Shown here: in pieces, positions 13,704 through 15,580 of the stretch | Layout of the letters: each line of letters begins with the position of its first letter | Numbering within the stretch: position 1 is the first letter of the stretch | NCBI RefSeq assembly: GCF_012726265.1 | Contig: NZ_JAASAG010000008.1 | Location: 310,001 to 374,000 of the forward strand | Reading direction: 5' to 3' | Length of the DNA stretch: 64,000 bases | DNA from: Streptomyces sp. HNM0575 | Lineage (GTDB): Bacteria > Actinomycetota > Actinomycetes > Streptomycetales > Streptomycetaceae | Program-made: the position numbers and the translations under genes | The notes under the pieces: model-generated | Told to the model about the DNA's origin: nothing | The model's input: the letters and a program-made list of their open reading frames with translations, nothing else | Databases searched by the model: none

Positions 13704-13960
13704 GCTCCCTCCAACTGGTCCTGCCTGCCTGTGGTTACGAGCCTGCTGCGCACAGTGACGGGACACATGCGTGGGTGTCCGCCCGTATCGGCCGAGTCGT
13801 GTGTCAAGTGAATCGTGTGCGGCCACAGAGGGGTTCATTCGAAGGGGTGGCGAATGGTGGCGATTCTGCGAACCCCCTCGCCCCGCCCGTGATCGTAGGA
13901 TTACTTTCGGTACACACGCGGTGGCGGAATCGCCTCGTGGGTATGCCGGAGGCATGGTTC

Positions 13961-15580
13961 GTGGGGGCGGTGAGGGGCCTGATGGGGGCGTTACCGGTTG
14001 GTGAGAGCGACAAGCTCCCCAACAAGCAGCTGAGTTCGTGGTTCATGCGCAGCGGCTGGTCCAAGGGAGAGCTCGCGCGCCAGGTCAACCGCAGGGCCCG
14101 TCAGCTGGGCGCACACCACATCAGCACCGACACCTCGCGGGTGCGCCGCTGGCTGGACGGCGAGCAGCCGCGCGAACCCATTCCGCGCATCCTCTCCGAG
14201 CTGTTCTCCGAGCGCTTCGGCTGCGTGGTCGCGGTCGAGGACCTCGGGTTGCAGCCCGTACGCAGGTCGCCCGCCGCCTCCGGGGTCGATCTGCCGTGGG
14301 CGGGCCCGCAGACCGTCGCGATGATCAACGAGTTCACGCGTAGCGACCTGATGCTGGGCCGGCGCGGATTCCTCGGCGCCTCCCTGTCGGTCTCCGCCGG
14401 GCCGTCGCTGATCGAGCCGATGCAGCGCTGGCTGGTGCCGAGCCCCTCGGCGGCGGACGCGGGCGGCTCCGCGGCCGCCGGCTCCGCTGTCGTGACCTCC
14501 CCGCACGGCAGCGGAGCCACGGCGTCCGCGACGGGGAGCGGCGGCGCGGTCACGCCGATGCCCGCCCGCCGCGGACCGGGAGCGCGGCAGCGCACGGAGA
14601 AGCTGTCGATGCCCGAGGTCGAGCTTCTGGAGCACACCACGGTCATGTTCCGGCAGTGGGACGCCCAGTGCGGCGGCGGGCTGCGCCGCAAGGCGGTCGT
14701 GGGGCAGCTGCACGAGGTGACGGACCTGCTTCAGGAGCGGCACGCGGAGCCGGTCGGGCGCCGCCTGTTCCGTGTGACGGCCGAACTCGCCGCGTTGGCA
14801 GGGTGGATGAGCTACGACGTCGGCCTCCAGTCCACCGCGCAGAAGTACTTCGTGCTGGCGCTGCACGCCGCGAAGGAGGCCGGGGACCGGGCCCTCGGGT
14901 CGTACGTACTGAGCAAGATGGGCCGGCAGATGATCCATCTGGGGCGCCCGGACGACGCGTTGGAGCTGGTGCACCTCGCGCAGTACGGCAGCCGTGAGGG
15001 TGCGACGGCCCGTACGCAGGCGATGCTGCACGCGATGGAGGCGCGCGCGTACGCGAACATGGGCCAGCCGGGGAAGTGCCGGCGGGCGGTGCGCATGGCC
15101 GAGGACACCTTCGAGGACGCCGGGCCGGGCGACGGCGACCCGGACTGGATCCGCTTCTTCTCCGAGGCCGAACTGAACGCGGAGACCGCCCACTCCTACC
15201 GCGATCTCGCCTACTCGCAGGGGCGCAGCCCGACTTACGCGTCGATGGCGCGGCCGTCGATGGAGCGGGCCGTCGAGCTGTTCAGGCGTGAGGCGGAGGA
15301 GACGGAGGGCGGCGGCCACCGCCGTTCGTACGCGCTGAACCTCCTCGGCATGGCGAGCGTGCATCTGCTCCAGAAGGAGCCGGAGCACTGCGCGTTCCGC
15401 GCGGGGGAGGCGATCGAGCTGGCCAGGAGGCTGCGCTCCGAACGCGTAAACAACCGGCTGCGCAGGACCGCGGCGTGGGCGGCGCGCGACTTCGGGGAGG
15501 TGGCGGAGGTGGTGCAGCTCGGCGAGCGGCTCGCGGCCGAGCTGTCCGACGCGGAATCGCCGGCCGCGGCGGCGGGGTGA
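13961..15580 (+). CDS. nsdA: NsdA, negative regulator of differentiation (contains a TTA codon)
   Basis: The protein matches NsdA of S. coelicolor, a TPR-containing protein whose loss enhances sporulation and antibiotic production. It has an N-terminal DNA-binding-like region (WFMRSGWSKGELARQVNRRA), the segment GVDLPWAGPQTVA, an Ala/Gly/Ser-rich variable linker (about nt 14450-14590), and a tetratricopeptide region (WMSYDVGLQSTAQKYF, MGRQMIHLGRPDDALEL). GTG 13961 is favoured because GGAGG (13948-13952) lies 8 nt upstream; GTG 13970 and ATG 13982 are alternatives. Codon 11 is TTA (13991-13993), read only by the bldA tRNA in Streptomyces, and all candidate starts lie upstream of it. A neighbouring terminator and intergenic gaps suggest monocistronic expression. 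Confidence 0.92.
   Translation: MGAVRGLMGALPVGESDKLPNKQLSSWFMRSGWSKGELARQVNRRARQLGAHHISTDTSRVRRWLDGEQPREPIPRILSELFSERFGCVVAVEDLGLQPVRRSPAASGVDLPWAGPQTVAMINEFTRSDLMLGRRGFLGASLSVSAGPSLIEPMQRWLVPSPSAADAGGSAAAGSAVVTSPHGSGATASATGSGGAVTPMPARRGPGARQRTEKLSMPEVELLEHTTVMFRQWDAQCGGGLRRKAVVGQLHEVTDLLQERHAEPVGRRLFRVTAELAALAGWMSYDVGLQSTAQKYFVLALHAAKEAGDRALGSYVLSKMGRQMIHLGRPDDALELVHLAQYGSREGATARTQAMLHAMEARAYANMGQPGKCRRAVRMAEDTFEDAGPGDGDPDWIRFFSEAELNAETAHSYRDLAYSQGRSPTYASMARPSMERAVELFRREAEETEGGGHRRSYALNLLGMASVHLLQKEPEHCAFRAGEAIELARRLRSERVNNRLRRTAAWAARDFGEVAEVVQLGERLAAELSDAESPAAAAG

Follow-up and report, generated by a model that had tools for sequence, protein, structure and literature searches.

A probable start-codon relocation and a TTA codon may tie the nsdA brake to the bldA timer in a clade of Streptomyces

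TTA codons are rare in Streptomyces and depend for their translation on the bldA tRNA, whose level rises late in growth. The window analysed here, a 64,000-nucleotide stretch of the genome of Streptomyces sp. HNM0575, carries such a codon at the beginning of nsdA, the gene designated SCO5582 in S. coelicolor. This raises the question of whether the codon is translated and, if so, whether it could place under bldA control a protein published as a repressor of differentiation and antibiotic production in S. coelicolor and S. rimosus. The assignment of the gene made in an earlier note on this DNA is borne out by both homology and context: the product scores 887.5 bits against the NCBIfam equivalog NF050130 (TransRepNsdA, “transcriptional repressor NsdA”; cut-off 830) and 434.8 bits against the NsdB model, which is under the cut-off of 700 for the latter. 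NCBIfam matches identify ftsY upstream and amtB, a PII protein gene, glnD and ffh downstream, an arrangement agreeing with what we take to be the S. coelicolor order (ftsY-nsdA-amtB-glnK-glnD-ffh). Pfam profiles returned weak TPR matches only, and a sequence search of solved structures recovered none similar to the window's NsdA. The same genome also encodes a distant NsdA-family paralogue (L083, C6:137219-138478, 35% identity), one long open frame of which (528 codons, a candidate coding frame) has a TTA near its middle.

An automated scan of the 51 genes (17,630 codons) called on both strands by codon usage recovered the nsdA codon as the only in-frame TTA in the window, just as the note had reported from reading; its frame runs on to the nsdA stop. 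To gauge how unusual this is, we took the genome-wide rate from 20 sampled stretches of 20 kb (400 kb of the 7.38-Mb genome) plus the window, which together hold 4 TTA codons among 120,112, in 4 of 343 genes, versus 6,603 CTG codons. Since about 0.6 TTA codons are thus expected in the window, a single one is unsurprising. In the other three genes of the sample, the TTA is codon 7 (lectin-like protein), codon 31 (transglycosylase/M23 peptidase, Rpf-like) and codon 118 (P450). Streptomycete TTA codons are reported to be biased towards the beginnings of genes (PMC4255298). Hence, it is the place and history of the nsdA codon, rather than its count, that matter.

We accordingly read the start regions of 116 nsdA orthologues, comprising 80 named loci from genome contigs and more obtained via DNA pattern searches in about 393 genomes of the genus; one pattern match (L161, genome G104) was not nsdA and was discarded. 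This comparison across Streptomyces, which the earlier note had suggested, found TTA at the start-region site in 18 of the 116 orthologues, as against only 3 of 116 with a TTA anywhere in the compared conserved body of about 480 codons (single codons in three other species: L011, L060 and L107). An exact pattern search recovered TTA at this site in 7 of 393 evenly drawn genomes of the genus, the window's own included. The viridochromogenes/coelicolor-type genes lack it, in line with the note's remark on S. coelicolor.

The prevailing arrangement, found in 82 of the 116 orthologues, is a GGGGG run followed after exactly 7 nt by a GTG that opens the NsdA frame (typical sequence GGGATGGGGGCGTTCCAGTGAGCGGC); with this spacer the ATG overlapping the run is out of frame. 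Orthologues with a changed run have a Shine-Dalgarno-like TAGGAGC (L100) or GGGAGGGG (L051) at that position, which supports the reading that ribosomes bind at the run and usually initiate at the GTG. In many of these orthologues (e.g., L037 and L058) AGC follows the GTG, and the out-of-frame ATG then opens a five-codon frame (ATG GGG GCG TTC CAG TGA) with a stop codon overlapping that GTG, a possible translational-coupling mini-ORF in many Streptomyces. A further 22 orthologues have an 8-nt spacer, which brings the ATG (TTG in L007 and L076) into frame unless a stop intervenes; 17 of them have the TTA in this spacer. The difference amounts to one base (GTTCC versus GTTACC), which at once makes the TTA and puts the ATG in frame. 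In another orthologue (L009) the TTA lies out of frame within a 9-nt spacer.

Most TTA-bearing relatives of the window retain the GTG with its GGGGG run (L005, L006, L008, L011, L016, L076, L090-L092, L094 and L095), and where the ATG was examined, a Shine-Dalgarno at a suitable distance is mostly missing; L005, for instance, has none at a workable spacing. Therefore, the TTA is probably an untranslated spacer in these species. Two others, L007 with a TGA and L009 with a frameshift, must start at the GTG, as the frame upstream of it is closed, and they show that nsdA can do without the spacer as coding sequence. Because the largest TTA group keeps the GTG, most of the phylogenetic conservation of the TTA lies outside demonstrated coding sequence.

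The clade formed by the window, S. abyssalis (L001; also G389/L089), S. nanshensis (L002), Streptomyces sp. WMMB 322 (L003) and S. daqingensis (L004) departs from this pattern. Among the 116 orthologues the GTG has become GTT or GTC only in the window, L001, L002, L003 and L089, all of which have the in-frame ATG together with the TTA. The ATG is likewise in frame in L004, L005, L006, L008 and L011. The features of the window's start region are collected in the table.

Features of the nsdA start region, in window coordinates
Feature	Position	Strand	Remarks
TAGGAT, -10-like hexamer	13896..13901	+	motif match; adjoins conserved TTACTTTCGGTACACAC block
Inverted repeat TATGCCGGAGGCATG (TATGCC-GGA-GGCATG)	13942..13956	.	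leader of nsdA
Alternative GTG start	13961..13963	+	8 nt after GGAGG (13948-13952); duplex -9.5 kcal/mol; no GTG at the L004 equivalent
Shine-Dalgarno TGGGGGCGGTGAG for ATG 13982	13962..13974	+	7 nt spacing; similar in L001-L004
Alternative GTG start	13970..13972	+	weak Shine-Dalgarno, duplex -4.4 kcal/mol
nsdA coding sequence	13982..15580	+	best-supported start ATG; 532 aa; stop TGA 15578-15580
ATG start	13982..13984	+	in frame only in lineages with 8-nt or 5-nt spacer (spacer table, start-region alignment)
GGGGG run	13984..13988	+	Shine-Dalgarno of the downstream GTG start in most Streptomyces
TTA (Leu) codon	13991..13993	+	codon 4 from ATG 13982, 8 from GTG 13970, 11 from GTG 13961
GTT, relic of ancestral GTG start	13997..13999	+	GTT in window, L001, L003; GTC in L002; GTG in L004 and most other orthologues

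All three starts proposed previously are indeed in frame and upstream of the TTA. The duplex of TGGGGGCGGTGAG with the 16S tail reaches -12.3 kcal/mol, a value attained by 2.7% of leader shuffles, and makes the ATG the candidate with the strongest Shine-Dalgarno throughout the clade. On this ground, and because GTG 13961 has no counterpart in L004, ATG 13982 is the most likely start, so that the TTA is probably codon 4 and not codon 11 as the note had it by assuming GTG 13961. An ATG at 13943 was rejected as a start: its Shine-Dalgarno is weak, and most indels on the way from there to ATG 13982 would break the reading frame. On the other side of the TTA, there is no ATG, GTG or TTG before the conserved SWF motif in the window, L001, L002 and L003, and thus no plausible start with a Shine-Dalgarno before the conserved protein, whereas relatives that retain the GTG, such as L005, L007 and L009, do possess one. 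The first in-frame ATG 3' of the TTA sits within the conserved SWFMRSG motif itself. That the conserved protein begins just past the TTA, a further observation of the note that stands, follows from the ancestral GTG having lain two codons 3' of it. With the GTG gone, a Shine-Dalgarno before the ATG and the TTA included by every candidate start, we infer that the codon lies inside the translated region in these four species of the clade. By this comparison of start regions, it is strongly supported that no NsdA molecule of these species would be made without decoding of a UUA near the beginning of its message. S. daqingensis, in which the new Shine-Dalgarno coexists with the old GTG, looks transitional. 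A second lineage with start relocation, represented by S. ochraceiscleroticus and S. violens (L020, L021), has GTG changed to TTG and the ATG in frame, with TTC instead of TTA. A second TTA triplet is also present further upstream in the window's open frame (relative codon -45, about 13901-13903), where it precedes any likely start.

As for the history of the codon, in a tree of 63 NsdA proteins 15 of the 18 TTA rows fall in one part, in which L007 (TGA) and L010 (TCA) are the exceptions; the other three, those of S. humicola (L016), S. catenulae (L076) and G230 (L094), stand elsewhere. The TTA state requires six changes on this tree, of which starred branches force at least four. Seven outgroup genomes, taken from a different family within the order, were of no use for rooting: six gave no match to the anchor motif, and the start region of the seventh is different and lacks TTA. 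The tree was therefore rooted only at its midpoint. The direction of the one-base spacer change, and with it gain or loss in each case, is accordingly taken from frequency. Within the clade, fourfold sites differ by 31-49% among the five genomes, yet none of these departs from the TTA. There are 85 sites at which the five agree in amino acid and one genome or more has a codon ending in A or T; just three of them show an identical codon throughout, namely the TTA, one GAA and one CGT; leaving out the TTA, this is 2 of 84 such synonymous sites. Moreover, the codon preceding the TTA is GAT in L002, versus GCG or GCA elsewhere, and the TTA is unchanged there. This retention suggests that the site is under constraint, either for bldA control or for the initiation region, which could favour A/T or a certain leader shape.

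The machinery needed for such control is encoded in the same genome: ARAGORN predicts a tRNA-Leu(taa), i.e., the bldA tRNA-Leu(UAA) (L125), and the adpA gene (92% identical to the query) carries its canonical TTA (DRS-L-PEE), with CCA as the next codon. The CCG that follows the nsdA TTA had been considered as a C-context argument against bldA dependence; as adpA of the same genome reads TTA CCA, we place no weight on the codon after TTA. Translation of rmdB of S. ghanaensis, which has one TTA, needed bldA, and changing the codon to CTG removed the need (PMC7026642). Misreading allows some TTA genes to be expressed even when bldA is mutated, as is partly the case for adpA of S. ghanaensis (PMC4932002, PMC3814723). 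Messages with UUA are reported to be less abundant without bldA (PMC2000904). Among the papers searched, none joins nsdA and a TTA codon, and SCO5582 does not appear in a published table of genes that often contain TTA (PMC4255298).

Taken together, bldA gating of the clade's NsdA is plausible from these comparisons. We envisage that the ancestral start was the GTG 7 nt after GGGGG, with the overlapping ATG out of frame. One more spacer base in some lineages would have created the TTA and brought the ATG into frame, and in the window's clade a new Shine-Dalgarno would then have arisen before the ATG and the old GTG decayed to GTT or GTC, leaving the spacer as coding sequence. As UUA is read by the late-accumulating bldA tRNA, NsdA would then appear late, or be confined to places with active bldA and AdpA, so that bldA would enable an activator (AdpA) and a repressor (NsdA) together, in a delayed brake or an incoherent feed-forward loop. 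Such a delayed NsdA would contrast with the early vegetative brake assumed from S. coelicolor. The start shift and the TTA may in this way tie the nsdA brake to the timer that launches development. That the start moved, that the TTA is translated (most likely as codon 4) and that NsdA acts as a bldA-gated late brake is, as a whole, a reading we lean towards, with confidence a little above even. The bolder version, in which start relocation set NsdA in an incoherent feed-forward loop with AdpA and TTA arose repeatedly because this wiring was favoured, we regard as rather unlikely.

The chief competing account, doubtful but with an appreciable chance of being right, accepts translation of the TTA and makes it regulatorily neutral: it would be a by-product of the start shift, at a place where A/T-rich codons aid initiation, and the bldA tRNA would not be limiting. 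A one-base spacer difference is indeed enough to create the codon, relatives with the GTG retain it where it is probably untranslated, and the published misreading of UUA without bldA shows how it might be tolerated. However, nearly all other A/T-ending codons of nsdA have changed in at least one clade member while the TTA is kept in five, its retention in L002 occurs next to GAT rather than GCG, and UUA is the codon most tied to bldA, with one tested example being strictly dependent (PMC7026642).

An annotation artefact, with the real start 3' of the TTA and the TTA a mere spacer, has a published parallel in SCO6717 of S. coelicolor (PMC2000904) and is probably the true state of most relatives, which start at the GTG two codons after the TTA (inescapably in L007 and L009). 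However, for the window we consider it very unlikely: the GTG is GTT or GTC in the window, L001, L002 and L003, which offer no other start codon before the SWF motif, and L001 lacks even the ATG inside that motif. For the window's clade a downstream start is thus excluded as far as sequence can exclude it. Alternatively, with initiation at GTG 13961 and the TTA as codon 11, bldA-gated stalling or an effect of the leader could alter, for example, the stability of the nsdA message or access to the ATG, instead of simply switching NsdA synthesis on or off. The GGAGG preceding that GTG by 8 nt, the inverted repeat spanning the region and the reduction of UUA messages without bldA are in keeping with this. 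Nevertheless, we hold it to be highly improbable, as L004 has no equivalent of GTG 13961 and the indels from the inverted repeat to the ATG are mostly not multiples of three.

The locus finds partial parallels in several known systems. One of them, present in its own genome, is adpA (bldH), likewise a developmental regulator gene whose one TTA is decoded by the bldA tRNA; AdpA, however, is an activator whose TTA lies between two domains and occurs in all streptomycetes analysed (PMC4255298), whereas NsdA is a repressor with the TTA at its start, confined as coding sequence to one clade. The claim that a TTA in a repressor inverts the usual bldA logic was overstated, for whiJ-like/AbaA-like loci (SCO1242, SCO1980, SCO3423, SCO5460) carry TTA and are thought to repress development (PMC4255298). 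These belong to different protein families, and nsdA stands outside the table of frequent TTA genes; given these precedents, its TTA is not a new kind, and it is the origin through start relocation that is unusual. The rmdB gene of S. ghanaensis resembles nsdA as a regulatory gene with one TTA, for which the bldA need was shown by recoding, but it encodes a c-di-GMP phosphodiesterase, not an NsdA-type repressor, and its TTA precedes the EAL domain. In the same species, deletion of bldA raised the activity of AdpA-regulated promoters, from which the authors proposed bldA-dependent repressors without naming genes (PMC3814723). A TTA-containing NsdA would occupy the same predicted network position, the S. 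ghanaensis repressor being deduced from promoter activity in a bldA mutant of another species. SCO6717 shares with nsdA a TTA near the annotated start, whose coding status is set by start choice; its TTA was judged to be upstream of the start (PMC2000904), whereas in the window's clade the downstream start is gone.

The bldA tRNA is usually seen as enabling development via AdpA, and the clade's nsdA is a candidate for the kind of bldA-dependent repressor proposed in S. ghanaensis. The locus would also exemplify a simple evolutionary route to bldA dependence, in which a one-base change between Shine-Dalgarno and start, followed by loss of the old start, turns a spacer into a TTA codon. On the practical side, several species give higher antibiotic titres when nsdA is lost, and recoding one codon in the clade would decouple NsdA from bldA.

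The leader of nsdA contains further elements. The inverted repeat occurs upstream of nsdA, at varying distance, in 25 of the 116 orthologues; its core is found once in the window and nowhere in the 400 kb sampled from the same genome. It is a possible operator or leader hairpin containing the GGAGG. Further upstream, a GTGATCG...TTACTTTCGGTACACAC block (13889-13917) is conserved across the clade, as well as in L010 and L011, in the start-region alignment, and is the likely promoter region. An AdpA-like site (TGGCGGAATC, at 13922), with one mismatch, gives a faint hint of AdpA binding in the leader.
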